A stretch of DNA of 64,000 bases from Planctomycetota bacterium (GTDB taxonomy: Bacteria; Planctomycetota; Phycisphaerae; Phycisphaerales; Phycisphaeraceae), in NCBI GenBank assembly GCA_024279865.1, contig JAJRRC010000052.1:62001-126000 (forward strand), read 5' to 3'. Both the position numbers and the translations under genes were made by a program. Shown one piece after another: positions 8,783 to 63,000 of the stretch. The notes beneath the pieces were generated by a model. That model did no database searches and was not told the origin of the DNA. It saw only the letters and a list, made by a program, of their open reading frames with translations. Within the stretch, counting starts at the first letter, position 1. Each line of letters begins with the position of its first letter.

Positions 8783-8919
8783 AGAACCACTAGGATACGC
8801 AAGGAACAGATGACAAGCGACTTGATTCCATCAATTTTCCAAGTTTGGTTATACTAAGATAGCCTTGTTTATCTTTCATGTCTTTCTTCAATTTTGTCTT
8901 TTCGACAAGGACCCCGTAT

Positions 8920-9786: not shown

Positions 9787-9831
9787 AATATGGTTTTATC
9801 CATTCTCACTTCATACACAAGGAATCAATTG

Positions 9832-10716
9832 ATGCAACTATCAAAACACTGGCAACAACAAATGGGAACCGGCATTCTGGCTTTGATGTTCAGCCTCGGA
9901 GCTGGACTTGCGTTCGGAGAAACTTCCGGGGGCGATTCCGGGGGGGCTTCCGGGGGCAATCTGATCATCAATGGTGATGCAGAGCTTACGGATTTTAAAA
10001 CCTGGCTGCATCTGACGACCACGTCAAACGATCCCCATGGTGGCGAGCATTGCTTTGAAATGACAGGCCATACCAATGTCCAAAATCACAAACCCATTGC
10101 CATTGATCCAGACAAAACCTATACCCTCTCAGGCTGGTTTAAGTCTGCGGGCGAAAAACCCAGCAACATTTACTTCGGCTTCGCCCCCCTCAATGCCAAG
10201 AAACAACAAATTGCCTCCTGGCATGTCAACGCCCTCGCTAAAACCCAAACCACGCTAACTGAAGCTTGTGCCAAAGGGGATACCGTCATCAAGGTCGCCG
10301 ATGCGTCCAAATGGGTTGCTCATAAATACTCAGTTGTGGCCTTTGACACAGCCTCAGACTTCTCAGATTTACCCAATCGCCAAACAACGGGCCATGGTAT
10401 CAAAGCGGTCCAAAACAAAGGCGATTACTGGGAAGTCACCCTGGCAAAACCCTGTAAGCAAACCAAAGAAGCTGGCACACCCGTTCGTGTTCATCGTGCC
10501 TCGGGAAGCTATATGTACTCTGCGGCATCCAGCAAAATCGTTCCCAATGAATGGACCCAGTTCTCTGCAAAAATCAAAGGCCACTCCATCAAAGGCAGCC
10601 CTCTCAAACAATTCTGGCCTGGAACCAAATTCGTCAGAATTTTGATCTTGGCAAATTGGGGGATGAAAAAAGAAGGCACCCTTCTCATTGATGATCTGGA
10701 ACTCACTGCTGAATAA
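9832..10716 (+). CDS. Secreted protein with CBM-like fold, copy 2
   Basis: Paralogue of the preceding gene over its whole length: both share SGWFKSAGEKPS, KGDYWEVTLAKPCKQ versus KGDHWEITLAKPCKQ, and LKQFWPGTKFVRILILAN. After the signal peptide (cleavage near GLAFG) there is an extra Ser/Gly stretch, ETSGGDSGGASGG, where copy 1 goes directly into NLIVDGDAE. That insert is encoded by three G-tract units (9919-9957). AAGGA (9819-9823) precedes ATG 9832. Only 45 nt separate the two copies and a terminator follows, so they form a two-gene operon. Confidence 0.75.
   Translation: MQLSKHWQQQMGTGILALMFSLGAGLAFGETSGGDSGGASGGNLIINGDAELTDFKTWLHLTTTSNDPHGGEHCFEMTGHTNVQNHKPIAIDPDKTYTLSGWFKSAGEKPSNIYFGFAPLNAKKQQIASWHVNALAKTQTTLTEACAKGDTVIKVADASKWVAHKYSVVAFDTASDFSDLPNRQTTGHGIKAVQNKGDYWEVTLAKPCKQTKEAGTPVRVHRASGSYMYSAASSKIVPNEWTQFSAKIKGHSIKGSPLKQFWPGTKFVRILILANWGMKKEGTLLIDDLELTAE
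9919..9957 (+). repeat. G-tract element at the signal peptide junction
   Basis: Three units of the form (A)TTCCGGGGG(C/G) inserted in frame. The paralogue at 8920-9786 lacks them at the corresponding position, which gives an internal empty-site comparison. Confidence 0.75.
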
Positions 10717-10824: not shown

Positions 10825-10952
10825 CCGCAAGCATACTTGCTTGGGCGTTGATCAAAATGCTTGAAGCAAATCAAAGGAAATTTCCGAGGAATTCCAGCGG
10901 ACCTTGAGCTTGACCCAAGGACAACTTCCGGGGGGCCGGGGACCGGGGGGGA
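10825..10952. repeat. REP-like hairpin and G-tract before the lon stop
   Basis: 10825-10847 is a REP-type hairpin (CCGCAAGCATACTTGCTTGG). 10922-10951 holds AACTTCCGGGGGG and a second GGGGACCGGGGGG unit. The tract ends one base before the complement of the lon stop codon (10953-10955). Confidence 0.75.
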
Positions 10953-19711: not shown

Positions 19712-21088
19712 ATGGTTATCAAACATTGTACTAAGCTAATGGCTGGAGCTTTGATGCTCAGTCTGACCGCTGGTGCGTTCGCCGCCGCCGATACTGGTGT
19801 CGCCGAACAACTCAAATCACTGCGCGCTGAAGTGGCTCAATTGCGAGCTGACTCTGACGCCAACTGGCTCAACGAACGTCGTGTCGAACAAGTCAAGGAC
19901 ATCGTTCGCGAAGTTCTAGCTGATGCGGACACCCGTGCAAGCCTTCTCGAAAATGGCATGTCTGCCGGCCACAACGGCAAACACTTTTTCCTGGCATCCG
20001 AAGACGGCAGCTTCTTGCTGAACGTCGGCGGACAAATTCAGTTCCGTTACGTTTACAACGAACGTAATATCGTCCGTGCTCCCATTGGACAAACCGATAG
20101 CAGCGAATTTGGTTTCACGCTGCGTCGCGTCAAGTTATTCTTCAACGGACACATCAGCTCACCAAAGATTCGTTACTCAATCGGTATTCAGACCGACCGT
20201 AACAACGAAACCCTCTACCTCGATCACGCATTTGTCGAATATGACCTGCGTGACGACGTAGCGATCTGGGCTGGCGAGCGTAAAGCTCCCTTCCTTCGCG
20301 AAGAACTCACCAGCTCCAAACGTCAACTGGCGGTGGACCGTTCACTCGTGAACGAAGTCTTCACCGCAGGTCGCGTGCAGGGTATCGGTGCAATCTGGAC
20401 CGCCAACGAAAACGTGGTTGCTCAAGTTGCGATTACCGATGGTATCAACTCCGGTGAAGCTGGCCCTGGGGCTACCAAAGACTTTGACGGCGATGCTACT
20501 GACTTCGCTATCACCGGTCGTGTGGACATTCGCGTCCTCGGTGACTGGGCTCAGAAAAACGAATTCACCACTTGGAGTGGTCGTGACAGCTCTCTATTCG
20601 TCGGTGCAGCTGCTCACTACGAAGTGGGTGAAACCGGCGATCAACAGGTCGCCAGCCCAGGTGTCGACAGCGTCTTCGCTTGGACCGTGGATGCTTCGGC
20701 AACCTGCGATCAAGGTGCGACTCTTTACGCTGCCGTTATCGGCCAGCACACTGATGCTGTGAGCGGTGGTACCGATCTGGACCACTATGGTTACCTCGTT
20801 CAGGGTAGCTATCACGTCATCGCTGACAAACTCGAACCGTTCATCCGCTATGAACTGATCGACATTGATGGTGTTGGTGTCCAAGACATCAGCCTTCTCA
20901 CCTTTGGTGCCAACTGGTACCTCAACAAGCATGCCTCCAAGTTCACCTTGGACTTGGTTTGGGCACTGGACCCGATCAACAGCGTCAATACCAATGGTAC
21001 CGGTACCAGCGGTTTGGGCTTGCTGGCGGATGATGCGAATAAAGAAGATCAACTCGCTTTTCGTGCTCAGTTCCAGTTGACTTTCTAA
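19712..21088 (+). CDS. Outer-membrane porin, phosphate-selective O/P-like, copy 1
   Basis: Beta-barrel outer-membrane protein of 458 residues. Signal peptide cleaved near AGAFA; then a short coiled-coil-like segment (about 27-75: EQLKSLRAEVAQLRADSDAN) before the barrel begins at FLLNVGGQIQFRY. FTLRRVKLFFNGHI and YSIGIQTDR are like the OprO/OprP family. It ends in Phe (QFQLTF), the BAM recognition residue. AGGAGA (19698-19703) lies 8 nt before ATG 19712. Its solute is unknown; phosphate or polyphosphate is only a family guess. Copy 2 follows in tandem and a strong terminator closes this gene. Confidence 0.85.
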   Translation: MVIKHCTKLMAGALMLSLTAGAFAAADTGVAEQLKSLRAEVAQLRADSDANWLNERRVEQVKDIVREVLADADTRASLLENGMSAGHNGKHFFLASEDGSFLLNVGGQIQFRYVYNERNIVRAPIGQTDSSEFGFTLRRVKLFFNGHISSPKIRYSIGIQTDRNNETLYLDHAFVEYDLRDDVAIWAGERKAPFLREELTSSKRQLAVDRSLVNEVFTAGRVQGIGAIWTANENVVAQVAITDGINSGEAGPGATKDFDGDATDFAITGRVDIRVLGDWAQKNEFTTWSGRDSSLFVGAAAHYEVGETGDQQVASPGVDSVFAWTVDASATCDQGATLYAAVIGQHTDAVSGGTDLDHYGYLVQGSYHVIADKLEPFIRYELIDIDGVGVQDISLLTFGANWYLNKHASKFTLDLVWALDPINSVNTNGTGTSGLGLLADDANKEDQLAFRAQFQLTF

Positions 21089-21157: not shown

Positions 21158-21556
21158 CCAAAAACACTTCGTTTTTGGAGCGATCAGTTACTAGCTATCA
21201 GCTATCAGTTGTCAGTTGTCAGTTGTCAGTTGTCAGCTATCAGTAAGAAAAAACATTCGGAAAGGAATTGCTTTGTCCTTGTGTGATTTCTGCGACCCAC
21301 GCTTGTGATCGCCCATGTGTTTGGGAGTTACCCCCCCCCCGGAACTCTACCGGTCCCCCGCCCTTTACGATAAAAACGCTCATCCATCAATCAAAATACT
21401 TTGAATCGTTCTCAAAAACATTCTGTAAAAATTCATTCATTCTTAACATGAAAATGATAAACCATGACTACACTCCTCCAAAGATGAAAGCTGATGATGT
21501 GTCAGCCTTTCAAAATGGAATTGGATTGTTTTTTTTCTTCACAGGAGAGTGATAAA
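21158..21556. repeat. Gap between the porins: TATCAG repeats and a C-tract
   Basis: 21181-21245 has tandem units of CAGTTGTCAG and CAGCTATCAG, then AAACATTCGGAAAGGAATTG. A C10 tract followed by GGAA lies at 21331-21344. The stretch 21160-21320 has a near copy at 23112-23250 after porin 2, so the duplication took the downstream flank with it. The rest is the porin 2 promoter region. No gene is seen. Confidence 0.7.
21443..21474 (+). promoter_or_regulatory. Possible porin 2 promoter
   Basis: TTAACA (21443-21448), 20 bp, TACACT (21469-21474); counterpart of the porin 1 site. Confidence 0.4.
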
Positions 21557-22932
21557 ATGGTTATCAAAAAATGTATGAAACTGATGACAGGAGCTTTGCT
21601 GCTCAGTCTGACGGCTGGAACGTTTGGAGCTATCAATGCGAACTTCGAGGAGCAATTCAAAGCAATGCAAGCTGAATTGGCTCAATTGCGAGCGGATTCA
21701 GATGCCAATTGGCTCAATGAACGTCGCGTCGAACAAGTCAAGGATATTGTTCGCGAAGTCCTAGCCGATGCCGACACCCGTGCAAGCTTGCTTGAAAGCG
21801 GCATGACTGCTGGACACAACGGCAAACACTTTTTCCTGGCATCTGAAGATGGTCGCTTCTTGCTAAACATCGGCGGCCAAATCCAATTCCGTTACATCAT
21901 GAATCAACGCAAGGGTGTCTCTCGGAACGGTCATGACAATGGTGAAAGCGGCTTCACACTACGTCGTACCAAACTGAAGTTCAAAGGACACATCAATTCA
22001 CCGAAAATTGGCTACGCCATCGGCATCCAAACCGACCGCACCAATGAAACCATCTACCTTGACCACGCATACGTCAAATATAAACTTCGCGATGATCTGG
22101 TCCTCTGGGCCGGCGAACGCAAATCCCCGTTCCTTCGCGAAGAACTTACCAGCTCTTCACGCCAACTCACTGTGGAACGTTCACAAATGAACGAAATTTT
22201 CACCCTTGGCCGCACACAAGGTGTCGGTGCTGTCTGGACAGCCAATGAAAATTTGATCGCTCACGTTGCCATCACCGACGGAAGCCGCTCAGGTGAACCT
22301 AGTTCCAAGGCCAAAAAAGACTTTGATGACGATACCACCGATTTCGCCATCACCGGTCGTGTCGATCTACGCCTGCTAGGTGACTGGAAACAAAAAAAGA
22401 ATTTACCACCTGGAGCGGTAAAGACGCTTCCCTGTTCATCGGTGCTGCTGCTCACTATGAAGTGGGCGAAACCGGAGACGACCAAGGAAGTACCGCCAAC
22501 GACAGCCTCTTTACTTGGACCGTGGATGGTTCTGCAACCTGCGAACAGGGTGGAACCCTTTATGCTGCTGTCGTCGGCCAACATCTCAATGCTGCAAGCC
22601 CAATCGCTGCCAATATGGATAACTATGGCTTTCTGGTTCAAGGCAGCTACCACGTCATCACTGACAAACTCGAGCCGTTTGCTCGCTATGAACTCATTTC
22701 CATGGATGGTGTGGCAGCAGAAGATGTGAGCCTTGTTACTTTGGGTGCCAACTGGTATCTCAACAAACATGCCTCCAAATTCACGGTGGACGTGGTATGG
22801 GCCTTGGATCCACTTACCTCGGCAAATCTCGGCGGTCATAGTCCTTCATCTGGCTTAGGTCTGATGAAATATGATGACGCAGGCGAAGGCGATCAAATTG
22901 CCTTGCGTGCTCAGTTCCAATTGTTGTTCTAA
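21557..22932 (+). CDS. Outer-membrane porin, copy 2, frameshifted in poly-A
   Basis: Paralogue of porin 1, with near-identical stretches such as LNERRVEQVKDIVREVLADA and WAGERK. The frame from ATG 21557 is broken at about 22392-22398 (C followed by seven A, then GAATTT). Beyond it the homologous protein continues in another frame (GETGDDQ...SLFTWTVDGSATCEQGG) to the stop at 22932. One more A restores GDWKQKKEFTTWSG and gives 458 residues, exactly the length of porin 1. It ends QFQLLF. An unshifted product would stop at 22729 with a foreign tail and no barrel end. Slippage-controlled expression or a consensus error are the two explanations. Confidence 0.85.
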
Positions 22933-23110: not shown

Positions 23111-23451
23111 CAAAAAACGAAGCGTTTTTGGAGCGACCAGTTACTAGCTATCAGCTATCAGCTATCAGTCAGAAAAAACATTCGGAAATGAATTGCCTGG
23201 TCCTTGGCGTGATTTCTGCGACCCACGCTTGTGATCACTCACGCGTTGGGAGAAACGACAGAGTGTTTTGTATTATTTCCGGCCACCGGCCCCGGACGCG
23301 CACGCAGTATGCGTGCGGCTACTTTTCAAAGAATCCAATGCTCCCCTCCGGAACCCCGAAAGTCCACTCCCCTTTTTTTCGACAAAAACACAATTCAGTG
23401 AATCCAAATGCTTTAAGCATCCCCAAAGAAAACTTCCGGGGGGGTGAACTT
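23111..23451. repeat. Repeats upstream of the ABC permease
   Basis: 23128-23175 TATCAG repeats; 23268-23330 REP-like hairpin (GGACGCGCACGCAGTATGCG) preceded by ATTATTTCCGGCC; 23431-23444 a G-tract unit (AACTTCCGGGGGGGTGA) that ends 7 nt before the next ATG and provides its Shine-Dalgarno-like sequence. Confidence 0.75.
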
Positions 23452-24444
23452 ATGACCCAAGTCGTTCGTATTACTTGTATGTTTCCACAAGCCTGGACCA
23501 TTGCGCGCAACACCTTTATCGAGAGCATTCGACAGCCGATTTTTGTCGTGGTCATGCTGATCGCGACGCTGGCGTTGTTCCTCAACCCGTCGTTGTCCGC
23601 TTATACGCTTGATAATGACAACAAGCTCTTAATTGACATGGGCTTGTCTACGCTGTTTATTATCGGTCTTTTGCTGGGTGCTTTTACCGCGACGAGCGTG
23701 GTTTGTTCTGAAATTGAGAATAAAACCGTGTTGACGGTGGTGAGTAAGCCGGTTTCGCGGCCGATTTTTATCATCGGCAAATACCTAGGCGTCACCGGGG
23801 CCATCGGATTGGCGTATTGGACGCTCTCCATTGTGTTTTTGCTGACGGTGAGGCATCAGGTGATGCAGACCGCCTCGGACAAATTTGATATGCCTGTCTG
23901 GGTTTTTGGCTTTGGATTTGGCCTCTTGGCGATCCTTGTGGCGGCCCTGGGTAATTATTTTTATAACTGGGTCTTTACCTCCGCGGTGGTCCGATTGGGA
24001 GGAGTCTTTCTGACTCTGGGCTACGCACTTGTGCTGGTGGTGGATAAACAATGGGAACTCCAATCACCTCTGGTCGATCTCAATCAACAACTGCTACTGG
24101 GCATTTTAATGGTTTTTGTTGCAGTGACCGTGCTGTGTGCGGTCGCCATTGCAACGTCCACAAGGCTAGGTCAAATGATGACCTTGCTCATCAGCATCGG
24201 CATCTTTTTCCTGGGCCTAGCCAGTCAGTACATGCTTGGCCGCTGGGCGGATGAATCCATTTACTTTGATGTAATTTACCGCATCGTTCCCAATTTGCAG
24301 TTCTTTTGGCCTGCCGATGCACTGACACAGGGCCATGACTTTACCCTTAGCTATGTGGGCATGGTCGTGTTGTATGCTCTGGGCCTAATCGGCGCCCTAC
24401 TCAGCTTGGCGGTGATTCTGTTCCAGACCCGTGAAGTGGGTTAA
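23452..24444 (+). CDS. ABC-2 type transporter permease
   Basis: Integral membrane protein of 330 residues with an N-terminal amphipathic stretch (ARNTFIESIRQPIFVVVM) and about six hydrophobic segments. The loop SVVCSEIENKTVLTVVSKPVSRPIFIIGKY is typical of ABC-2/NatB-like permeases (PF12679-type). The ATP-binding partner is not beside it, so it may be encoded elsewhere. Substrate unknown. ATG 23452 follows GGGGTGA from a G-tract repeat element; an open frame upstream through repeats is not protein-like. Confidence 0.8.
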   Translation: MTQVVRITCMFPQAWTIARNTFIESIRQPIFVVVMLIATLALFLNPSLSAYTLDNDNKLLIDMGLSTLFIIGLLLGAFTATSVVCSEIENKTVLTVVSKPVSRPIFIIGKYLGVTGAIGLAYWTLSIVFLLTVRHQVMQTASDKFDMPVWVFGFGFGLLAILVAALGNYFYNWVFTSAVVRLGGVFLTLGYALVLVVDKQWELQSPLVDLNQQLLLGILMVFVAVTVLCAVAIATSTRLGQMMTLLISIGIFFLGLASQYMLGRWADESIYFDVIYRIVPNLQFFWPADALTQGHDFTLSYVGMVVLYALGLIGALLSLAVILFQTREVG

Positions 24445-24717: not shown

Positions 24718-25902
24718 ATGGGCGATTTAGCTTTTATTAGTAACGAACCAACCCCTTACCGGTTGCACCTGCTTGAGCGGCTCACCAATGAGCAGCCGGC
24801 CCTGCACGTCCATGCTATTTTCACGCATACCTTGGATAAAGCTCATGTTCCTTGGGACATGAACATGGATCAGTTGCCTCGTCCGGTTTTTTTTGAGAAA
24901 GAGGCTTTGGGTCAAACTCAGTCGCCGCGGCAATGCTATCGGCTATTCAAACAAATCCGAAACTACCTCATTGAGCAAAAAATCCAACTGGTCATTCTCA
25001 ACGGCTATGCCGATCTGACGCGGCTACTTTTACTGCGATGGGCTCACAAACAGGGGTTGCCTGTGGTCTTGCGGGGGGATTCGAATATCCATGGTCAATC
25101 CCATTTGCCTTCGGTTCGCCGTTGGGTCAAACGCCGTGTGCTAGGCTGGATCGGTCGACATATCGCTGGCCTGATGCCGATGGGGCGGTGTGGCGAAGCT
25201 TTTTTTGAATACTGGATGCCCAACCACCGATTGCCGATGTTTTTCTGTCCGTATGAACCCAATTATCAGGCCATTGCCGACTGCTCGCCAGAGGTCATCC
25301 TCCAGTTTTTACAGGATCATCAACTAGACCCCACCCGTCAACGGCTCCTGTATTGCGGTCGTTTGATTGATGTGAAATGTGTGGATGTGTTGCTCGATGC
25401 GTTTACCCGGGTTGCCGACTCACAACCCAACTGGGATTTGGTCATTGCCGGGACCGGGGAATGTGAAGATTCACTTAAAAATCAGGTTCCCGAAGCACTC
25501 AAAGCACGGGTTCATTTTTTGGGTTTTCTTCAGTTTGAGCAGACCATTGCCTGTTATCACTGTTGTGATGTTCTGGTCCATCCGCCACGGTATGAACCTT
25601 GGGCCTTGGTCATCAATGAAGCAGTTGCCGCGGGATTGGCTGTCATTGCGACCCATGTCACCGGTGCTGCAACCGAATTGGTCCATCACAACCACAACGG
25701 CCTGCAAGTAGAACCCGACGATGTTGATCAGCTGACCGAGGCGATCCTTCGCATGACCCAAGGACAAACCGCCAAACACATGGGCCAAGCCTCGGTCGAA
25801 GTGTTAGCTGCCTGGCAAGCAAAAGCAGATCCCGTCGCAGGCATTGTCCAAGCGATGGACAAACTGGCCCCCCCGGAAGCCCCCCCGGAAGCTTCCCCCT
25901 AG
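24718..25902 (+). CDS. Glycosyltransferase family 4-like
   Basis: GT-B fold glycosyltransferase of 394 residues, cytosolic or membrane-associated. N-terminal acceptor domain (ISNEPTPYRLHLLERLT) and C-terminal GT1/GT4 domain with LLYCGRLIDVKCVDVLLDAF and the donor-binding E-x7-E region (EPWALVINEAVAAGLAVIAT). The last residues (PPEAPPEASP) come from a C-tract element (25868-25899) and are not part of the fold. The likely job is surface polysaccharide or glycolipid synthesis; sugar unknown. Its upstream region is a family B repeat. Confidence 0.85.
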   Translation: MGDLAFISNEPTPYRLHLLERLTNEQPALHVHAIFTHTLDKAHVPWDMNMDQLPRPVFFEKEALGQTQSPRQCYRLFKQIRNYLIEQKIQLVILNGYADLTRLLLLRWAHKQGLPVVLRGDSNIHGQSHLPSVRRWVKRRVLGWIGRHIAGLMPMGRCGEAFFEYWMPNHRLPMFFCPYEPNYQAIADCSPEVILQFLQDHQLDPTRQRLLYCGRLIDVKCVDVLLDAFTRVADSQPNWDLVIAGTGECEDSLKNQVPEALKARVHFLGFLQFEQTIACYHCCDVLVHPPRYEPWALVINEAVAAGLAVIATHVTGAATELVHHNHNGLQVEPDDVDQLTEAILRMTQGQTAKHMGQASVEVLAAWQAKADPVAGIVQAMDKLAPPEAPPEASP

Positions 25903-27147: not shown

Positions 27148-27182
27148 GGGGAAAGCCGGGGGGACTTCCGGGGGGGGGGGGG
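27148..27182. repeat. G-tract element touching the nrdR stop
   Basis: Two units, GCCGGGGGG and ACTTCCGGGGGG, the second with a run of 13 G that ends immediately before TTA, the complement of the nrdR stop. Confidence 0.8.
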
Positions 27183-27674
27183 TTAAAACAGGGTGTCTTG
27201 ATTGGCGGGATCGTCGCCTTGGTTTTCCATGACATCACGTACTTCTTCTAGGAAGTCATCGAGATCCCGAAACTGCTTATAAACACTGGCAAAGCGCACA
27301 TAAGCCACCTGATCGACCCGTTTAAGACGGTCTGCCACAGCCCGTCCAATTTCGATGGCCTGTACTTCACGTTCATATTGTCGGGCCATGCTTTCTTCCA
27401 CATCATCAATGAGTTTTTGTAAAATCTCATCACTGACAGGACGCTTATAACAAGCTTTTTCCAAACCTGACTGAATCTTTAAGCGATTATAAGGCACACG
27501 CGTGCCGTCTTTTTTAATCACCACCAAACGATTTTTCTGTTCCACATATTCACGCGTGGTAAACCGACGATCACAATCTAGACATTGCCGACGACGACGG
27601 ATCGATTCCCCCGCGTCGGTGGCACGTGAGTCAATGACTTTGTTACGCGACGAATCGCATGAGGGGCATCGCAT
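27183..27674 (-). CDS. nrdR: Transcriptional repressor NrdR
   Basis: ATP/dATP-dependent repressor of ribonucleotide reductase genes; 163 residues. N-terminal zinc ribbon MRCPSCDSSRNKVIDSR with the second pair CLDCDRRF, then an ATP-cone (RLVVIKKDGTRVPYNRLKIQ). C-terminal tail EVRDVMENQGDDPANQDTLF. No ribonucleotide reductase gene is in the window. The stop codon is directly followed (on the coding strand) by a C-tract of about 13 bases (27148-27182 region). Confidence 0.95.
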   Translation of the reverse strand: MRCPSCDSSRNKVIDSRATDAGESIRRRRQCLDCDRRFTTREYVEQKNRLVVIKKDGTRVPYNRLKIQSGLEKACYKRPVSDEILQKLIDDVEESMARQYEREVQAIEIGRAVADRLKRVDQVAYVRFASVYKQFRDLDDFLEEVRDVMENQGDDPANQDTLF

Positions 27675-29252: not shown

Positions 29253-29606
29253 GCAATGCCACAAGCAAACGGATGCCCCGCGCGAACCTCTGATTCTAGT
29301 GCATTTTGCATTATTTCCTGCCCCCCCCGGGGGGGCCCCGGACGCGCCCCGGACGCGCACGCTGTTAGCGTGCGGCTGCTTTTCAAACGCCCCACCTAGA
29401 GCGTGATGAATTCAGAGATCGTGTTTTAAAAGAATCCGACTCTTCGGCAGACCTTAGAGTTCGGCTTTGTCACAGCCACAAGCTAACAGCTTGCGCGTCT
29501 GATAAGTGTGACGCTCTAAATACACGCTTCTAACGTGCGCAAAACAGCTTCACTTTTCATTGATGATAAAAAAGACGAATGAAAGCTTCCGGGGGGGGGC
29601 GGGGGG
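29253..29606. repeat. Mosaic of repeats between two convergent genes
   Basis: In order: ATTTTGCATTATTTCCTGCC and C8G7 tract (29301-29340); REP-like hairpin with stem CGCACGCT/AGCGTGCG (29351-29379); AATCCGACTCTTCGGCAGAC repeat (29432-29475) shared with 57244; a hairpin half-site GCTTGCGCGTCTG (29491-29505); and a G-tract (29585-29606) that ends at the complement of the next stop codon. No gene is seen. Confidence 0.8.
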
Positions 29607-29897
29607 TTAGGATTCGATGTCCATGGCCATTAGGTCTGCATCAGCTTTGAGTGGGACAGCTACGGCAACGTGTTCGGGATGAACCTGATAAGCGTCCAAT
29701 GCGTCACGACTTTCAAGCGTGACCAACAGGCCATGGTTAAACCCATTGGCACGATCTGTAAAGTTTTTACCCGCGGACAACGCAGTGATTCCCGGAACTT
29801 TGGCGGTCAAAGATCGAAGGCCTTCAAGGTGTTCATTGATACGGGTTTCTGTGATGTCAGCCTTGAATTTGATCCAGACCATGTGTTGCACTGCCAT
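29607..29897 (-). CDS. Stress-responsive A/B-barrel (Dabb) protein
   Basis: Small ferredoxin-like fold protein of 96 residues of the Dabb family (PF07876). Typical pattern: MVWIKFKADITETRINEHLE, VPGITALSAGKNF, NHGLLVTLESRDALDAY, HPEHVAVA. Function unknown in bacteria; some members are small dimeric enzymes. GGAG lies about 8 nt before ATG 29897. The stop codon touches a G-tract element. Confidence 0.88.
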   Translation of the reverse strand: MAVQHMVWIKFKADITETRINEHLEGLRSLTAKVPGITALSAGKNFTDRANGFNHGLLVTLESRDALDAYQVHPEHVAVAVPLKADADLMAMDIES

Positions 29898-34076: not shown

Positions 34077-35042
34077 ATGAGTGTTTCGTCGTTAACAGAT
34101 CAATTTGTGGAGTTTGGTCCTGGCCGGCGTGTTCATGCCTTAGTCGGCCCCCCCCCCCCCGGAACCCCCGGAACCCCCGGAACCCCCGGAAGTTTCCTAG
34201 AAACCTCCGTTCTAGGCCTTCCCGGAAATTTATCTTCAAACAATCACCAAGCTTTGGGAAGCAGTTCTGAAGTATCAGACAACCAACCCAAAACTTTTGG
34301 CAGCGAATCCGAAACTTCCGGGGGGGGGGGGGTGGTTTTTTTTCCTGGGAATGGGGGATCTGCCGCGGATTTTGGGCCGGTGATGGAACAGTTAACTTCA
34401 CGTTTTGGAGTGGTGGGCTTGGATTTTCCTGGCCGATCTGAAACCCAGTGGCCTGATGTTCGCTTTGATTTTACTTCAGACCTTCACCCGGTGATCGATT
34501 GGTCCTTGTCCCAGTTGGGTGTGGGAATTCACTTTGTCGTCGGGCATGGCAGTGGCGGGATGGCTGCCTTGCAACACGCCAAGCGTCATCATGGCCAAGT
34601 TCAAGGCATCATTCTTCTAGAAAGCTACCTCAACGCAGAAATCCAAAATCAAACCATTAGCCGTAAGCATCGACGACCCATTCGTTTTGAATCCCAAGAA
34701 CAAATCGCATTCCAAAGACGACGCATGCGCCATTCATTGTGGCTCAATGAACACGCGACTTTTCGTGAATCCTTCATCTCTAGCCAAAAAGGGTACAACG
34801 CTGCACCCTGGATCAACGAACTGGATATCCCAATTCAAGTTCAAGTCGCTGACAGTGGCCAACCTCTACCACCAGAAAAAGACCTTTTAGCTTGGAAAAA
34901 TCAATTGGGGATGACCGAAATTAAAAATTTAGAAATTACAAAGGTCCCCGATTCTGGACACTGGCTCATGTTGGATGATCCCAATTATGTCGCTCAAAAA
35001 ATAGATGGGTTTATCAAAAAGACACAAGTATCAGGTCTTTAA
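34077..35042 (+). CDS. Alpha/beta hydrolase with a repeat-derived insertion
   Basis: Alpha/beta hydrolase-fold protein of 321 residues. The fold starts HALVG and then, after an insertion, resumes VVFFPGNGGSAADFGPVMEQ; the nucleophile-elbow region is FVVGHGSGGMAALQHA and a likely catalytic His is in DSGHWLMLDDP. In the usual GHSxGG elbow the Ser is one position earlier; here that slot is Gly followed by Ser, so activity is uncertain. Residues about 24-86 come from a complete C-tract...G-tract element (GTPGTPGTPG at one end, SETSGGGG at the other) that keeps the frame. Monocistronic, as far as can be seen. Confidence 0.75.
   Translation: MSVSSLTDQFVEFGPGRRVHALVGPPPPGTPGTPGTPGSFLETSVLGLPGNLSSNNHQALGSSSEVSDNQPKTFGSESETSGGGGVVFFPGNGGSAADFGPVMEQLTSRFGVVGLDFPGRSETQWPDVRFDFTSDLHPVIDWSLSQLGVGIHFVVGHGSGGMAALQHAKRHHGQVQGIILLESYLNAEIQNQTISRKHRRPIRFESQEQIAFQRRRMRHSLWLNEHATFRESFISSQKGYNAAPWINELDIPIQVQVADSGQPLPPEKDLLAWKNQLGMTEIKNLEITKVPDSGHWLMLDDPNYVAQKIDGFIKKTQVSGL
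34148..34332 (+). repeat. Complete C-tract...G-tract element inside a hydrolase gene
   Basis: Starts with a C13 tract and four GGAACCCCC-type units, continues about 120 bp, and ends AATCCGAAACTTCC then G14. The ends are inverted relative to each other (CCCCCGGAAGTTTC and GAAACTTCCGGGGG). It adds about 62 codons without breaking the frame. Confidence 0.8.
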
Positions 35043-42754: not shown

Positions 42755-42893
42755 GAAGTGATCAGTGATCAGCGATCAGTTGTCAGTAAGAGGGGAAAAA
42801 TTCGGAAACGGCTTGTCTGCGTTGCTTGGATATTCCCTCTTTTTCCGCACGTTTTTTACTGATAGCTGAAAGCTGATCGCTGATCGCTTAAAC
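42755..42893. repeat. TATCAG-type inverted repeat (MITE-like)
   Basis: The left arm GTGATCAGTGATCAGCGATC and the right arm TGATCGCTGATCGCTTAA pair over about 40 bases; the centre has TTCGGAAACGGCTTGTCTGC. It lies between the divergent prmC and the M42 peptidase, so it probably contains their promoter region. Confidence 0.75.
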
Positions 42894-42902
42894 TATCTGG
42901 TT

Positions 42903-43970
42903 ATGAAACTACTTGAAAAACTTGTGCAGACACCTGGCGTGCCGGGTCGTGAAGATCGTGTGCGTGACTTGATTCTCCAGCAAACCAAAGGTTTGTTTGA
43001 CCAGACGCATGTGGACGCGATGGGGTCTCTACTCTGTTGCCGCAAACCTCGCCCCCGCCCCCGGAAGCTTCAGAAGGGTTCTGGAAAATCGATCACCGCT
43101 TCACCGCTGAAAGTGATGCTCGCTTGTCACATGGATCAGATTGGTTTTCTGGTGCGTCATATTGATGGCAAAGGTTTTTTGCGTGTGCAGCCGGTGGGTG
43201 GATTTGATACGCGGAATTTGTTTGCTCGCATGGTGACGGTTTGTACTGCCAAGGAAGATTTGCCTGGCGTGCTGAACCCTGGCGGCAAGCCGGTGCATTT
43301 GGCGTCTGCTGAAGATCGCAAAAAAGTGCCAGAGATTGAAGAATTTGTGGTGGACCTTGGATTGCCTGTGGAACAGGTCAATAAAAAAGTGCGCGTCGGT
43401 GACATGGTGGTCATTCGCGCGTCGTTCACCCAAGTCGGCAACACGGTCGTGAGCCAATGCTTGGACAACCGCATTGCCTGTTGGGAAGCCATCGACGCGA
43501 TCAAAAAACTGAAGTATCACGATTGTGAAATATGGGCCGTGTTCACCGTGCAAGAAGAAATTGGCTGTCGCGGTGCGGGTCCAGCCGCGGCACGTGTGCA
43601 ACCAGACGTCGCGATCACGCTGGATACCACGCTGTGTTGTGACACGCCAGGCGTGCCTGCGGAACTTGCCATCACCGAGCAAGGCAAAGGGGCTGGCCTG
43701 ATGGTCATGGACTCCAGTGCGATGACAGACCTAAAACTTCTTGAAGAGTTTGAAGCTCTGGCAAAGAAGAACAAGATCCCCGTTCAGCGAACGATTCTCC
43801 CACGCGGCGGAACCGATGCGTCCACCATTCAACGACGGGATATGGGTTACCGAGTGATGACGCTTGTGTGTGGCACGCGCTATATTCATACCGTGACGGA
43901 GATGGTTCATCTGGTGGATTTATATGCTTGCCGTGACTTGTTGGTGGCTTATTTGCAGAGCGCAAAGTAA
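42903..43970 (+). CDS. M42-family metallo-aminopeptidase
   Basis: Dinuclear-metal aminopeptidase of the M42 (FrvX/TET) family; 355 residues. Motifs: ACHMDQIGFLV (first metal ligand), LDNR, catalytic VQEEIGCRGA, ALTLDTT-type ligand (ITLDTT), GGTDAS and TRYIHT. It probably forms a large cytosolic assembly that trims peptides. Residues about 48-62 (RPRPRKLQKGSGKS) come from a C-tract unit in frame; the usual family sequence runs directly from the first strand to the metal motif. Start ATG 42903; upstream is a TATCAG inverted repeat. Confidence 0.9.
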   Translation: MKLLEKLVQTPGVPGREDRVRDLILQQTKGLFDQTHVDAMGSLLCCRKPRPRPRKLQKGSGKSITASPLKVMLACHMDQIGFLVRHIDGKGFLRVQPVGGFDTRNLFARMVTVCTAKEDLPGVLNPGGKPVHLASAEDRKKVPEIEEFVVDLGLPVEQVNKKVRVGDMVVIRASFTQVGNTVVSQCLDNRIACWEAIDAIKKLKYHDCEIWAVFTVQEEIGCRGAGPAAARVQPDVAITLDTTLCCDTPGVPAELAITEQGKGAGLMVMDSSAMTDLKLLEEFEALAKKNKIPVQRTILPRGGTDASTIQRRDMGYRVMTLVCGTRYIHTVTEMVHLVDLYACRDLLVAYLQSAK

Positions 43971-44234
43971 AGAGACGGATACAACGAAATTAGAAATCGT
44001 TTTTTTGGCGCGCGTGTTGCGCTTGGTCATTCATAATAAAGAATCCGACTCTTCAGCAGAGTTCGGCTTGGGCTGAATCGAATGGTCTTTTTTGGCGCGT
44101 TTGAAAAAAATAACACGAGCGTAAAAGAATCTCCCCCAAAATTTTCGAAAGAAGCAAGGCAAAACCAAAGAAAAACTTCCGGGGGGGATTTCCCAAACGC
44201 TGGGTTCACCAAGGGAAACTTCCGGGGGGGGGGG
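43971..44234. repeat. Repeats before the HNH stop, including a double G-tract element
   Basis: AATCCGACTCTTCAGCAGAG (44041-44060) belongs to the short repeat seen at 29432 and 57244. 44174-44234 has AACTTCCGGGGGGG, then the longer arm CAAACGCTGGGTTCACCAAG, then AACTTCCGGGGG to a run of 11 G that touches the complement of the HNH stop. Confidence 0.8.
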
Positions 44235-44864
44235 TTATTTTAGTTCGACCGACCAGTAGGCGTTGTCTAGGAAAGTTTGCCAGCAGGCAAAGCGGTTGTT
44301 TTGCAGGCGGACGGTGATGGCGGGGTTGCGTTTGGGTTTGTAAGGTTGATTGATGAGTTTCATGTGAGCTTGCTGAGGGGTGCGTCCTCCTTTTTTCGCA
44401 TTGCACCGAACACAACAACACACCAGGTTTTTCCAAGTGCTAATTCCACCTTGACTGCGAGGCAGGACATGGTCGAGACTTAATTCGGTGGTGGGAAAAT
44501 TCTTACCACAGTATTGGCAAAGGCTGTGGTCTCTCGCGTAAATGTTTCGACGATTGAGTTTTACGCCTTGGCGAGGCAATTGGTCATAGCCAAGGAGGCG
44601 AATAATTTTGGGAATGACAAGATGGGCCCGAACCGTGCGGACCCGTTGATAGTCTTGTTGTTCAAATTGTTTCCAGGCTTGTCCGAGCTGGGACCAGTTT
44701 TCAAAATCGTGCCCGCTGTAGTTGCCTTCGTCCACATGAATGACTTCAGCGATATTGCAACATAAAAGTGAAAAAGCGCGGCGAGCATCGGTGACACGAA
44801 CAGCTAACCAGAGCTTGTTGAGCACCAGAACTGGAGCATTTAAATTAGAGACGGCTGCACTCAT
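44235..44864 (-). CDS. HNH endonuclease family protein
   Basis: HNH nuclease of 209 residues. The HNH core is CQYCGKNFPTTELSLDHVLP ... WKNLV..CVRCN, with two CxxC zinc pairs and the DH catalytic pair. The N-terminus (LVLNKLWLAVRVTDARRAF) is typical of a chromosomal HNH family found in planctomycetes and other phyla. Its substrate is unknown, and there is no restriction or phage gene beside it. GGGAGG lies before ATG 44864. The stop touches a G-tract element. Confidence 0.87.
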   Translation of the reverse strand: MSAAVSNLNAPVLVLNKLWLAVRVTDARRAFSLLCCNIAEVIHVDEGNYSGHDFENWSQLGQAWKQFEQQDYQRVRTVRAHLVIPKIIRLLGYDQLPRQGVKLNRRNIYARDHSLCQYCGKNFPTTELSLDHVLPRSQGGISTWKNLVCCCVRCNAKKGGRTPQQAHMKLINQPYKPKRNPAITVRLQNNRFACWQTFLDNAYWSVELK

Positions 44865-44979: not shown

Positions 44980-45918
44980 CTATTGGGATGCAGATCGCAG
45001 CGATTGAGCAGAGAGTAACCGTCTTAATGACTGGAGCAACGGTTGATCCGTTCGAATCAAGACATGACGCACGCCAGCCACATGACAACAGTGACGAACC
45101 TGATCTAAATGACTTTTTATTTGCGTTTGGTAACGCTCGCCCACCGCTTGTAAATCAGTCTGTACTTCTTCATGGGTTTCACTGTCACGCAAATGCCAAT
45201 GCCCTTTTTGAGGTAACTGTAATTCATCAGGCGAAAGAATTTGAGCTACCCATAATTCACGGCCTCCATGGGTCCAATGACGAATGGATTTTTCTAACTG
45301 TGGCAAGTCATCAAGAAAATCACCAAGCCAAACAACAACCCCCCCCCGGAACCCCCGGTTCCCCCGGAAGTTCTCGCTCATCTTTTTGATGCCCTTGGAA
45401 GTTTCTCGGAATCGTTCTTGGCAATTTTTAGCGGTCTTTTTTTGAATGACTTGAGAAAGTGTTTCGTAAATTCGACCCGTGGCAGCGAGGTGACGCATCG
45501 GTGGATAATGAACGATGCAATTTTGTTTTTGAAAAATGTCCAGTCCCACCCTGTCATGCTGACGAATTACAATTTGCGTGAGCGCCCCAGCCATGGTGGC
45601 GGCATACCGTAATTTTGTCGGCAAACAATTCTCAGATGACAGCGATGCAAAGTCCATCGACGCTGAAGCATCCAGAACCAGTGAAAATTGCTGTTGACCC
45701 AAGTGTTGTTGGCGACGAACAAATAGCCGATCCGTACGGCCGAAATGTTTCCAGTCCACCAAGCGTGGGTCATCGCCGGGACAGTATGCCCGCCGATCAA
45801 AAAAATCATTCCCATGACCCGTGGCAGAAGATCGATGTTCGCCGGCCAGAAAACGACTTGCCAAGCCTGTTGCGACGAGGCGCAAATCTGCCGGTGAATT
45901 CCATTGTGTGAGGTCCAT
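44980..45918 (-). CDS. DUF58 domain protein (vWA-like)
   Basis: Protein of 312 residues with the DUF58 signature RAYCPGDDPRLVDWKHFGRT and a von Willebrand A-like fold starting LVLDASASMDF (MIDAS DxSxS). DUF58 proteins usually work with a MoxR AAA+ ATPase; none is visible next to it, so the partner is elsewhere or to the other side. Residues about 183-198 (SENFRGNRGFRGGVV) carry an in-frame C-tract/G-tract unit (45340-45374) just before a beta strand. ATG 45918 is chosen because homology begins soon after it; a longer frame starts at 45963. Confidence 0.8.
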   Translation of the reverse strand: MDLTQWNSPADLRLVATGLASRFLAGEHRSSATGHGNDFFDRRAYCPGDDPRLVDWKHFGRTDRLFVRRQQHLGQQQFSLVLDASASMDFASLSSENCLPTKLRYAATMAGALTQIVIRQHDRVGLDIFQKQNCIVHYPPMRHLAATGRIYETLSQVIQKKTAKNCQERFRETSKGIKKMSENFRGNRGFRGGVVVWLGDFLDDLPQLEKSIRHWTHGGRELWVAQILSPDELQLPQKGHWHLRDSETHEEVQTDLQAVGERYQTQIKSHLDQVRHCCHVAGVRHVLIRTDQPLLQSLRRLLSAQSLRSASQ

Positions 45919-45950
45919 GTCCACGCTTAGATTGTATCCCCATCCAATCA

Positions 45951-45978
45951 GACGCGCAAGCAAGTTTGCTTGCGGCTG
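45951..45978. repeat. REP-like hairpin
   Basis: GACGCGCAAGCAAGTTTGCT then TGCGGCTGG: stem CGCAAGCA/TGCTTGCG with an altered loop. Confidence 0.75.
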
Positions 45979-46012: not shown

Positions 46013-46309
46013 ATGGATGCAAAACAGCTTAAGCAACCAAGTCAACGTGCGGTGAGCGCACAAAAAACCCGAGAGTCGCTTGGGGGCGACTCTCGGGAGA
46101 AATTTCCAAAGATTGAAGTTTGCCAAAAGAAAATTTCCGGAAGGGAAATCCCAAAAGCGATGGGATCACCAGGGGAAACTTCCGGGGGTTCCGGGGAGGA
46201 TTCCCAAAACGCTGGGATCACCAAGGGAAACTTCCGGGGGGGGGTTAGTGTTCGTGCAGGCTGGCATCGACTTCATATTCGCCAGCAATTGGCGCCAGTG
46301 AGGGCGTGA
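46013..46309 (+). CDS. Doubtful small ORF with a perfect Shine-Dalgarno
   Basis: AAAGGAGGT lies 4 nt before ATG 46013. The frame encodes 98 residues, starting [20 protein letters not shown]; the next 50 are translated from the G-tract element and a terminator, and the last 20 lie antisense to ThuA. Only the first 20 codons could be original. It may be a remnant of a gene truncated by repeats, or chance. Confidence 0.25.
46062..46097 (-). terminator. Rho-independent terminator of the ThuA gene
   Basis: Perfect 12-bp stem, CCCGAGAGTCGC (46068-46079) with its complement (46086-46097), and on the minus strand a following run of six T. It lies 148 nt beyond the ThuA stop; the space between is a G-tract element. 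Confidence 0.85.
46098..46244. repeat. G-tract element between ThuA stop and its terminator
   Basis: Three partly duplicated units: TTTCCGGAAGG, CAGGGGAAACTTCCGGGGG and CAAGGGAAACTTCCGGGGGG, the latter two each preceded by a CGATGGGATCACC/CGCTGGGATCACC arm. The final G-run touches the complement of the ThuA stop at 46245. Confidence 0.8.
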
Positions 46310-47027
46310 TGTTTGGAGCATTTAAGCGATAGGGCGCGCTGCTATTTTGGTTGGCCCATTTCACGCCGTTGGCGATGACACGTTGGACGTTTTCGTTGTA
46401 GTAGATTGGGAAGGTTTCATGGCCAGGACGGAAGTAGAAGATACGTCCTTTGCCACGGGTCCAGGTGCAGCCAGAGCGGAAGACTTCGCCACCTTCGAAC
46501 CAACTGATGAAGATCTGTTCGTCGGGTGCGGGGATGTCAAACATTTCGCCGTACATTTCGGTATCGGTGAGTTCGAAGTGTTCATCGGTGAGGCCGTCGG
46601 TGATGGGGTGTCCTGGATTGACGTTCCAGATCAGTTCCCGTTCACCTTGTTCGCGCCAGCGTAGTGAGCAGGTGGTTCCCATGAGTCGTTTGAAAATTTT
46701 GGAGTAGTGTCCGGAGTGTAGGACAAGTAGTCCCATGCCTTGGAGCACACGTTTTTGCACTTTGTCGACGATGGCATCGGAGACTTCGCCATGAGCACAG
46801 TGTCCCCACCAGGTCATGACATCTGTTTGTTCGAGGACTTCATCGGTGAGGCCGTGTTCAGGTTCATCGAGTGTGGCGGTTCGGACGAGGACATTTTGGC
46901 CGAGTTGTTTTTCGAGGCAGGATTTGATTGTGCCATGGATTCCTTCTGGGTAGAGGTCTTTGACTGCTTGGTGGTTTTGTTCGTGACGAAATTCATTCCA
47001 GACGGTCACGCGGATGGGTTCGGACAT
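46245..47027 (-). CDS. ThuA-like domain protein
   Basis: Class I glutamine-amidotransferase-like fold protein of 260 residues of the ThuA family (trehalose utilisation). [20 protein letters not shown] starts the fold; [24 protein letters not shown] and [16 protein letters not shown] are conserved family stretches. In rhizobia ThuA acts in trehalose/disaccharide 3-keto derivative metabolism; in planctomycetes the family is very common in sugar-related loci, but no partner is beside it here. Normal length for the compact ThuA type. Confidence 0.88.
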
Positions 47028-47391: not shown

Positions 47392-48066
47392 ATGCCTACC
47401 AGTACGGCCGAAAACTATCTCAAGACGCTTTATCAACAGCAACAGCGGCAAGAGTCGCCTGAAAAGCCGTTGGCGATGGGTCGTCTTGCTCAAGCGATGA
47501 ATGTCGCGCCCGGGACGGCGACGGCCATGATTAAAACGCTGGCATCGACAGGCCTTGTGAATTATAAATCTCGTGGTGGTGTTAGTTTAACAGAAGAAGG
47601 CCGGGTTCAGGCTTTGCATATTCTTCGTCGGCATCGTCTGGTTGAACTGTTGCTTGTCGAAGTGCTGGGGATGAATTGGGCCGAGGTTCATGAAGAAGCT
47701 GAAGTGCTTGAGCATGCTGTTTCTGACAAGGTTCTAGAGAAGATTGATGCCTATTTGGGACATCCACAAGCCGATCCGCATGGCGACCCGATTCCCACTG
47801 CCAAAGGTAAGCTCAAATTCGCGAAGCAGCAAAATCTGATCGACATTTCCCAGACCACCGGGTTGAAAATCGCACGAATTCTCGATCAGAATCGGGCCTT
47901 TCTGCAATTTATTCATGATGCAGGCTTGTTGCCCAATACCAAAATTACCATTCTAAAGCGAGACTCCGTGGTTGATGCCATTACGGTTCAGCCTGTCGGC
48001 GGGGACCCAATCACCTTGGGGACCAAGGCTGCTGCGAAAATTCTGGTTCAAACCGATACCGCATAA
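47392..48066 (+). CDS. DtxR/MntR-family metal-dependent regulator
   Basis: Metal-sensing repressor of 224 residues, sensing iron or manganese. N-terminal winged helix (TAENYLKTLYQQQQ, then RLAQAMNVAPGTATAMIKTL), dimerisation/metal domain (LLVEVLGMNWAEVHEEAEVL, EHAVSD, LGHPQADPHGDPIP with ligand Cys replaced by Ala-type as in MntR-like forms) and a C-terminal FeoA/SH3 domain. Which metal cannot be decided. Its 3' end overlaps that of the convergent epimerase gene by 19 bp. Confidence 0.9.
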   Translation: MPTSTAENYLKTLYQQQQRQESPEKPLAMGRLAQAMNVAPGTATAMIKTLASTGLVNYKSRGGVSLTEEGRVQALHILRRHRLVELLLVEVLGMNWAEVHEEAEVLEHAVSDKVLEKIDAYLGHPQADPHGDPIPTAKGKLKFAKQQNLIDISQTTGLKIARILDQNRAFLQFIHDAGLLPNTKITILKRDSVVDAITVQPVGGDPITLGTKAAAKILVQTDTA

Positions 48067-48905
48067 CGCAGCGCTTGGCTTAAGCTCTGGTGCGAAAAAA
48101 CATAGCCTGCTTCAATGAGTTTTTGAGGAACCGCACGCGTGCTAGCTAGCAGCAATTCGTCCGCCATTGGACCAAGGGCCAAGCGTGCAGCCATTGCTGG
48201 CATCGGTAGCACGGTCGGGCGATGCAGAACTTGCCCAAGTGCTTTGGTGAATTCATAACAAGTCACCGTCTGCGGGGACACCACGTTCATGGGGCCTGTG
48301 ATCGATTCATTTTCTAGTGCAAACTCGACTGCGCCAGTAGCATCCTTGAGGCTGATCCAAGGCCAATATTGCTTGCCTGAACCGACCACCCCACCCAAAC
48401 ATAACTTAAATGGCAGAAGCATTTTAGATAACGCTCCCCCTTGTTTGGAAAGCACCATACCAAACCGTGCATGGATTACCCGAATGCCCACTTGGCGGGC
48501 GGGGTTTGCTGCTTGTTCCCATTGTTGACCTGTTTGAGATAGGAAGCTTTTGCCGGGGGTTGCCTGTTCGGTTAAGGGTTCGTCGCCGCGATGGCCATAA
48601 AGCCCCACTGCCGAGGCAACGATCAAGGTTTTGGGTCGGTTTTGCGTTTGATTGGCCATGGCTTGAGCCAATTGCTCGGTGCTATGGACTCGGCTATCAC
48701 GGATTTGCTGTTGAAAGCGGGCCGTCCAACGTTTGGACGCAATGTTCACCCCGCCAAGATGAATCACAGCTTCGGGAAATTCACGATTCAGATCCCACCC
48801 ATCAGCTCCCCGACGAAGCAATTCAACATCGTGACCAGTCTCTAACAACTGCTTTTGCAGTGCTGTGCCGATGAGTCCTGATCCCCCTGCCAATAAAATT
48901 TGCAT
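48048..48905 (-). CDS. NAD-dependent epimerase, YfcH type (TIGR01777/DUF1731)
   Basis: SDR-fold protein of 285 residues. N-terminal MQILLAGGSGLIGTALQKQL is the NAD-binding motif; HLGGVNIASKRWTARFQQQI and the C-terminal DUF1731 region (MPAMAARLALGPMADELLLA) are typical of the YfcH/sulA-like family. Its substrate is unknown. ATG 48905 follows GGGGAGG on the coding strand, which is the end of a G-tract element; the frame extends upstream as repeat-coded sequence. Confidence 0.88.
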   Translation of the reverse strand: MQILLAGGSGLIGTALQKQLLETGHDVELLRRGADGWDLNREFPEAVIHLGGVNIASKRWTARFQQQIRDSRVHSTEQLAQAMANQTQNRPKTLIVASAVGLYGHRGDEPLTEQATPGKSFLSQTGQQWEQAANPARQVGIRVIHARFGMVLSKQGGALSKMLLPFKLCLGGVVGSGKQYWPWISLKDATGAVEFALENESITGPMNVVSPQTVTCYEFTKALGQVLHRPTVLPMPAMAARLALGPMADELLLASTRAVPQKLIEAGYVFSHQSLSQALRYAVSV

Positions 48906-49281
48906 CACAATCCTCCCCCCCCGGAAGTACCCCCGGAAGTACCCCCGGAAGCTTTTCCTTGGGTAAATTTTCAAGTCCCTAGCCCCCATATCCCGGGCCT
49001 TGGTCTCTGACCCCTCTTTCCCAAAAGCTTTTCCCGGAAGTTTCTTTGGGTAAATATGAAGCCTTCAGAAGCATCTTTGGCCATTTTACCCCGAAGTACA
49101 CCCTGAAGGTCTCAGCAGCGAATCTGAAACTTCCGGGGGGGCTTACTGGTATTTTAGCCCCCTTTTTCAAATGGCAATAGGTAACGGATAGCAGATCTTT
49201 AATCATGTGAAAATTGTCGAATGGTCCTTGAGCGAATAACATTGGTTTTTTACGCCTTTTATCTTTTGGGAGAATCGTCTC
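48906..49281. repeat. Large C-tract...G-tract element and glyA upstream region
   Basis: 48917-49141 starts with a C8 tract and three CCCCCGGAAGTA-type units, has CTTTTCCTTGGGTAAATTTT, and ends AGCGAATCTGAAACTTCC plus G7. The same GCGAATC(T/C)GAAACTTCC end is found at 34304 and in altered form at 51968. 49142-49281 is unique sequence with a promoter candidate for glyA. Confidence 0.8.
49214..49242 (+). promoter_or_regulatory. Possible glyA promoter
   Basis: TTGTCG (49214-49219), 17 bp, TAACAT (49237-49242), 40 nt before the glyA ATG. Each box matches the consensus at four of six bases. Confidence 0.4.
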
Positions 49282-51511: not shown

Positions 51512-51996
51512 TTCGACCTCTGGTCCTGGCGATTTTCGGCGGCTTCTTGTTGTGGATGTCTTTGCGAAGCTTGCGATCCCAACGATTGCAAGAACGCTAC
51601 GTGCTTCTATTTATTGCGACCGGATTGCCCTTTTTGGTTCTGGCGGTTTGGCCTGATGGGATTGTGTGGCTATCTGAAAAAATGAACATGGAAAAGCCCA
51701 CCTTGATGGTCTTTTGCCTTGGCTCATTTACCATTGTGCTTTTGCTCAAACTCTTTTCGATCATCAGTGTCCAACAACGCCAAATTGCATCCTTGGCACA
51801 AATGGTCGGCATCCTCACCCAAAAACAACCCTTCTCCCCCCCCGGAGCCCCCCCCTCCGGAAGTTTGTCCGCGGGCAACTTTCAAGTCCCCGGAAGCATT
51901 CCTACTAATATTCCAGAAAATCTTTCTGAAATGATTTCCGAAGCACACCAATCTGAAGACCTTCGCAGTGAATCTGAAACTTCTGAGGAGGGCTGA
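51508..51996 (+). CDS. DUF2304 membrane protein with repeat-coded tail
   Basis: Small membrane protein of 162 residues; residues 1-100 are the DUF2304 domain with three hydrophobic segments (RPLVLAIFGGFLLWMSL, LFIATGLPFLVLAVWPDG, VFCLGSFTIVLLLKLFSII) and the ending QQRQIASLAQ. DUF2304 proteins normally sit next to polyprenyl glycosyltransferases, as here, and are thought to help them in the membrane. The last 55 residues, PFSPPGAPPSGSLSAG onward, come from a C-tract element (51837-51990). It overlaps the next gene by one base (TGATG). Confidence 0.85.
   Translation: MIRPLVLAIFGGFLLWMSLRSLRSQRLQERYVLLFIATGLPFLVLAVWPDGIVWLSEKMNMEKPTLMVFCLGSFTIVLLLKLFSIISVQQRQIASLAQMVGILTQKQPFSPPGAPPSGSLSAGNFQVPGSIPTNIPENLSEMISEAHQSEDLRSESETSEEG
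51837..51990 (+). repeat. C-tract...G-tract element ending in a ribosome-binding site
   Basis: Starts with a C9 tract and CCCCCCCTCCGGAAG, continues about 110 bp in frame, and ends GTGAATCTGAAACTTCTGAG followed by GAGGG, a degenerate G-tract. That end supplies the Shine-Dalgarno of the following glycosyltransferase, whose ATG is 51996. Confidence 0.7.
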
Positions 51997-61055: not shown

Positions 61056-61097
61056 AGCCGCAAGCATACTTGCTTGCGCGTCTGGGATCCGGGGGGG
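61056..61097. repeat. REP-like hairpin and G-tract before a stop codon
   Basis: AGCCGCAAGCATACTTGCTT then GCGCGTCTGG is the inverse of the 45951 copy; GGATCCGGGGGGG follows and touches the complement of the next gene's stop. Confidence 0.8.
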
Positions 61098-62552: not shown

Positions 62553-62700
62553 GCCCCCGGAACCCCCCCCCGGAAGTTTCCCCCGGAAGTTTTTCCTTGG
62601 TTATGCCAGCGTTTTTGGAAAGGTTTGATGCTCTTGTTTTTTTTGATTGATGTTGAGGTGTGTGTGGTGCGTTTATGATTTGCGTGTGACGATCACAACG
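62553..62700. repeat. C-tract element with extended arm
   Basis: CCCCCGGAACCCCCCCCCGG, two GGAAGTTT units, CCTTGGTTATGCCAGCGTTT, then AAGGTTTGATGCTCTTG and TTTGATTGATGTTGAGGTG as at 60262-60345. 62701-62796 is unique sequence. Confidence 0.8.
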
Positions 62701-62793: not shown

Positions 62794-63000
62794 TTATTCC
62801 GGGGGGGCTTCCGGGGGGGCTTTTGAGGTATTTGCTTTGCGGTCGGCAAGTTCTTTGCGATTGACTTGCATAGAGCGTGGGAAGTCAAAGGCAAGACAAA
62901 CTTTGTCGCCTTGAATCTCGACCACACGAATCACACCCAGTGGATTTGCGGGGTCACCAATGACCACTTCTTCGCCAATGCGTCGGGTTAAGGCCAGCAT
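62794..63000 (-). CDS. csrA: Carbon storage regulator CsrA
   Basis: Homodimeric RNA-binding protein that controls translation of target mRNAs, often flagellar and carbon-storage genes, by binding GGA motifs near ribosome-binding sites. MLALTRRIGEEVVIGDPANP and DKVCLAFDFPRSMQVNRKEL are diagnostic, including the RNA-contacting RR at residues 6-7 and the C-terminal RxE-like region. 68 residues; the last 10 (KAPPEAPPE) come from a C-tract element (62797-62820). ATG 63000 lies at the end of a family B repeat, GGGAATGG being the only Shine-Dalgarno-like sequence. Confidence 0.92.
   Translation of the reverse strand: MLALTRRIGEEVVIGDPANPLGVIRVVEIQGDKVCLAFDFPRSMQVNRKELADRKANTSKAPPEAPPE

Follow-up and report, generated by a model that had tools for sequence, protein, structure and literature searches.

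We found that the scattered C-tract/G-tract repeats of this stretch are copies of one 10-letter word, CCCCCGGAAG, and not a transposon family. The window, i.e. the whole 64 kb of DNA analysed (G000:C70:62001-126000), belongs to a 3.4-Mb draft genome, G000, and encodes planctomycete-type proteins, e.g. DUF1549, DUF1553 and DUF1501. The exact 10-mer has 26 matches in the window versus 0.17 expected, and CCCCCGGAAGTTTCC, with up to three mismatches, has 35 versus 2.3 expected; the initial annotation had counted more than 20 such loci in the 64 kb. Across the whole of G000 the exact word occurs 660 times, versus 2 for its mirror-image control. The word is equally frequent on both strands.

Exact copies number 1,180 in G015, 1,067 in G006, 727 in G026, 479 in G028 and 425 in G030, the density in motif-rich genomes being roughly one per 3-5 kb, and they are at background in G003 (30, control 29), G020 (13, control 12) and G011 (11, control 5). 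Among the six genera sampled, CCCCCGGAAG is the top over-represented 10-mer in G000, G015, G026, G006 and G040, and the second in G030. The enrichment is limited to Phycisphaeraceae, as judged by record titles, and a few genera of the same order. Families outside the order were at background in a class-wide sample, and when named genomes were scanned for the tandem form, 84 stretches matched, almost all of which came from Phycisphaeraceae, Phycisphaerales or Planctomycetota. We observed no obvious alternative word in samples of 40-60 kb from motif-poor genera, which are small, and the spacing of CCCCCGGAAG is random or slightly clustered rather than even.

When examining exactness in five genomes, we observe that the word exceeds its Markov expectation 40- to 86-fold, with its one-base variants at positions 1-9 mostly lying near theirs. 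With the 30 one-mismatch words pooled, the ratio of exact to singly mismatched copies is 660:581 in G000 (mirror control 284) and 1,067:999 in G006. Exact copies are fewer than the raw singly mismatched ones in G015 (1,180:1,419; mirror control 393), G026 (727:855; mirror control 371), G028 (479:647; mirror control 306) and G030 (425:632; mirror control 203). Perfect copies rival or outnumber the 30 one-mismatch words combined, which is a hallmark of the DNA uptake sequences (DUS) of Neisseriaceae and the uptake signal sequences (USS) of Pasteurellaceae, for which the excess of perfect copies has been called a puzzling common property (PMC1626085). In Neisseria and Haemophilus such words label DNA to be taken up in natural transformation. 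Mobile repeats in decay would be expected to leave a cloud of near copies.

In an alignment of the copies, CCCCCGGAAG is strongly conserved in G000 and is followed by a less conserved TTTCCC tail. Other genera conserve only CCCCCGGAAG(T), so that no more than about 10 bp are common across genera. A profile search with the longer form gave 36 matches at E<0.01 versus 0 in the reversed control, with no occurrence of the tail without the core. The C-tracts of G000 are 7-13 long and its tandem arrays are of 9-14 bp; C-tracts of at least 7 accompany 64 of its 119 copies versus 17/109 or fewer in the other samples. The composition tests were run on stretches and not on the whole genome, the 432 kb of G000 being picked around exact 15-mers and thereby biased toward motif-rich regions, and gene calls came from a simple script rather than a standard gene finder. 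Inverted ends, on which the initial annotation had built a non-autonomous mobile element, are statistically real in G000, where opposite-orientation neighbours within 300 bp comprise 15 inward and 0 outward pairs, an excess not seen in G015, G026, G040 and G030. That proposal is right in that the repeat is dispersed and non-random and that some of its copies form inverted pairs. Mobility is unsupported, as what the copies have in common is the 10-bp word, with a weak tail at most, no conserved body beyond these was found between the inverted ends, one-mismatch copies are near background, and most genic copies in G026 are substitutions that leave the length unchanged.

Within the window, two of the three loci said to have both ends, 34148-34332 and 48917-49141, indeed carry a left C-tract and a right G-tract; at 51837-51990 the left end is degenerate (CCTCCGGAAGTTTG) and the right end, GAAACTTCTGAGGAGGG, lacks a G-tract. 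The first comprises a C13 tract and four CCCCCGGAA units followed by GGAAGTTTCC (34148-34197, plus strand), translated as PPPPGTPGTPGTPGS within the open frame 34077-35042, an alpha/beta hydrolase, and an inward-facing partner of GAAACTTCC and G13 in the same frame (34310-34332, minus strand); a search for related loci with this hydrolase as query gave no match. At the second, three CCCCCGGAAGTA-type units in 12-bp tandem (48918-48956, plus strand), upstream of the minus-strand gene 48048-48905, have their inward-facing partner at 49125-49139 (minus strand). At the third, a degenerate copy without a good right end (51838-51866, plus strand) falls within the C-terminal extension of a DUF2304 protein. 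A further pair consists of three CCCCCGGAA copies, two then followed by G (62554-62594, plus strand), facing two copies at 62797-62822 (minus strand). The right end described as a common GCGAATC(T/C)GAAACTTCC has a real shared tail and is otherwise the same motif, reversed. Likewise, the ACGCTGGGATCACCAAGGG arm attributed to five copies is a tail on a few copies that is never independent of the core, the 27-base form including it having 3 window matches at up to three mismatches.

Several window copies lie at gene ends, all on the minus strand: two copies at 44171-44234, the first directly abutting the TAA stop of gene 44235-44864; two with a TTGGTGATCCCAGCG tail at 46174-46244, flush after the TAA of gene 46245-47027; and a C13 tract plus motif at 27160-27182, immediately following the TAA of a gene that is NrdR-like by sequence (27183-27674). 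Single copies lie 3' of genes 10953-13412 (Lon-like by sequence; 10920-10934, minus strand) and 29607-29897 (29581-29595, minus strand), and the G-tract of another (23428-23442, minus strand) precedes the start of gene 23452-24444 by about 7 nt. Inside genes, a 12-bp array (6060-6110, minus strand) encodes a C-terminal PPEVPPEVPPEV in gene 6045-6887, another array (9918-9956, minus strand) encodes ETSGGDSGGASGG in gene 9790-10716, and two copies (25870-25896, plus strand) encode a C-terminal PPEAPPEASP in gene 24718-25902. One copy is found in gene 42903-43970, putatively M42-peptidase-like and so named from sequence (43058-43072, plus strand), and a 9-bp array lies within gene 44980-45963 (DUF58) on the strand opposite to the gene (45343-45375, plus strand).

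Other repeats were observed alongside these. A second palindromic repeat of the GACGCGCAAGC..GCTTGCGGCTA type, also GCGCACGC..GCGTGCGGCTA, is present at 61087-61150 of the window, at 8025-8060 of L046 and near 16334 of L029, and sometimes lies between inward-facing CCCCCGGAAG copies. A palindromic GAAGAGTCGGATTC/GAATCCGACTCTTC repeat is over-represented in G000, with 16 GAATCCGACTCTTC copies in the window and L028-L047 together. STRR-like heptamer arrays (AGCTATC, TCAGTTG, AGTGATC) occur at window positions 21193-21244, 23146-23168 and 42757-42780, and the putative outer-membrane gene 19712-21088 is present again at 21494-22932, where the reading shifts frame (21494-22729, then 22462-22932), a frameshift or an assembly error. 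An inverted repeat at 16098-16275 of L055 has many partial matches in G047 and is unrelated to CCCCCGGAAG. In genus g31, a CCCGCGCAGGCGGGAATCC-type repeat family occurs at G030 loci (e.g. L078 near 16729), and one copy in G030 has CCCCCGGAAGTT in place of the loop that G044 has.

Genic copies were compared with their homologues. In G026, 63 of 76 clusters are genic versus 84.7% expected, a share equal to the coding fraction, and copies fall in each of the six frames; of 20 aligned genic sites, 15 show no gap. Its mutS holds seven copies of the word, and further copies lie in alaS-, mnmE-, dus- and AddB-like genes (names read from Pfam matches, AddB from PDDEXK_1 alone). Similarly, in clpB of G040 the word replaced 14 nt, with the length unchanged relative to three congeners. 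In G000, genic copies are depleted (53/119 versus 83% expected), occur in both orientations and sit in PPE, PPG or SGG linkers missing from homologues; 14 of 15 aligned sites are gapped and 1 is ungapped, placing them mainly in lineage-specific insertions, so that this genome does have an insertional component. G030 and G040, whose genes are about 80% identical, differ in the presence of post-stop copies, the flanks being too diverged for target-site duplications or empty sites to be recognised, and G030 and G044 (about 88% identical) differ in unit number at a shared post-stop site; 9-nt expansions are seen in G040 and G030. These differences show rapid turnover without demonstrating transposition. 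Near 8500-9500 of L053 (G040:C12), scaffold gaps (N runs) directly adjoin G-tract copies, which suggests that the tracts may hinder assembly.

We give about even chances to the reading that CCCCCGGAAG is a lineage-specific, sequence-maintained word working like DUS and USS. This reading would explain why the word is exact, strand-symmetric, lineage-restricted and present in core genes. Like them, it is a word within the 9-12 nt range with hundreds to thousands of exact copies on both strands, genic and intergenic, with many perfect relative to singly mismatched copies and a family-restricted distribution (PMC1626085, PMC3630211); inverted pairs, a DUS trait (PMC3630211), are in clear excess here only in G000. 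The absence of strand or replichore bias, as far as sampled, is a further likeness. On the other hand, CCCCCGGAAG belongs to another phylum and is unrelated in sequence, and G000 differs in its tandem arrays, variable C-tracts, insertion-type copies and stop-codon abutment. To our knowledge, tandem arrays, long C-tracts and exact stop abutment are not DUS or USS traits. USS reportedly arise by substitution (PMC1626085, PMC1939737), and the insertion-type copies in G000 depart from that model, therefore we do not claim DUS/USS membership.

The fuller proposal, that a DNA uptake sequence evolved independently in Planctomycetota and that insertions and tandem arrays too become fixed through the uptake bias, such that the word spreads by both insertion and substitution, is more tentative, at somewhat less than even chances. 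Under the main reading, a putative surface receptor of the competence machinery would bind fragments carrying CCCCCGGAAG, recombination with taken-up conspecific DNA would keep restoring exact copies, and the same recombination may spread new copies to tolerant sites, namely intergenic DNA, gene ends, linkers and permissive codons. In G000 an added process, probably insertion plus slippage, would give rise to the C-tracts of 7-13, the arrays, the inward pairs and the stop-flush copies. ComEC (PF03772) and DprA (PF02481) are present in G000 and nearly all relatives; as they are also found in motif-poor genomes, they are compatible with uptake and non-discriminating. The near-complete G009, without a ComEC match, has 80 exact copies versus 478 with a single mismatch (control 389); the ratio looks decayed in this single genome, but some motif-poor genomes do have ComEC.

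Position relative to genes raises the prospect of an RNA-level 3' element, a terminator or Rho-loading C-tract after stop codons. Of the 37 G000 copies whose left neighbour is a same-strand gene, 18 begin 0-4 nt after the stop (3.4% expected, p ~3e-17), TAA precedes 17 of these 18 although it makes up 59% of gene stops, and in G026 5 of 7 copies are at distance zero. We nevertheless consider its chance very slim, given the many copies upstream of starts, the intragenic copies in both orientations (53 of 119) and the unfolded state of stop-adjacent copies (mean z -0.1 versus -1.1 in the control), which ruled out an RNA hairpin or terminator. Our guess is that the abutment results from erosion of neutral spacer between two maintained features. 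Functionless slippage, in which C-runs and GGAA units expand locally, would fit the 9-14 bp arrays, the variable C-tracts, the unit-number change between G030 and G044 and the 9-nt expansions, and it is likely a contributor; STRR of cyanobacteria, short tandem units in heptamer arrays, offer a likeness, differing in that the CCCCCGGAAG decamer is kept exact with many single copies. However, slippage cannot account for the recurrence of one exact 10-mer across hundreds of unrelated sites in several genera and leaves the single substitution-type copies of G026 unexplained; as the sole cause it is largely refuted, with a slim chance.

A small insertional repeat, i.e. a MITE-, REP- or RPE-like palindromic element with C-tract/G-tract inverted ends spreading by copying, its in-frame copies tolerated in linkers and gene ends, draws on the gapped G000 alignments, the 15:0 inward pairs, the weak tail common after the core with its 36 profile matches, and the array at 9918-9956, which is missing from the adjacent paralogue 8878-9786. 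We regard it as unlikely, since only about 10 bp are common across genera, derivatives with one mismatch are close to background, most of the G026 copies align without gaps and ClpB of G040 acquired the word at unchanged length. Rickettsia palindromic elements (RPE), in-frame gene insertions of roughly 100-150 bp, have a conserved body, unlike the roughly 10 bp conserved here. The inward pairs likewise lack the conserved body that terminal inverted repeats bound in a MITE. Chi and KOPS, also short over-represented words, represent another possibility, a chromosome-maintenance word for Chi-like recombination, KOPS-like segregation or nucleoid-protein binding, and would accord with about one copy per 3-5 kb in rich genomes, presence in core genes and lineage restriction. 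This we find quite unlikely, as CCCCCGGAAG shows no polarity along the closed G030 chromosome as sampled, nor any consistent within contigs, and tandem arrays and linker enrichment would not be expected; KOPS/AIMS were rejected on reverse-strand sites also present between 1.7 and 2.9 Mb of G030. REP sequences (GTAG/CGTC) with RAYT similarly lie near gene ends and sometimes within genes, and an RPE inside a gene has also been noted (PMC3733652), but here there is no GTAG/CGTC-tagged palindrome and stop-adjacent copies have no hairpin. RAYT mobilisation was rejected, with only two Y1_Tnp matches in G000, one full-length.

The need for uptake words has been described as unique to Neisseria and Pasteurellaceae (PMC3630211), and in the open-access literature we found no report of sequence-specific natural transformation in Planctomycetota. 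If the uptake reading of CCCCCGGAAG is true, it would constitute an independent case in Planctomycetota and point to sequence-specific natural transformation in that group. It would also offer a further test of molecular drive versus function, and it would account for many unusual PPE, PPG and SGG linkers among predicted Phycisphaeraceae proteins.
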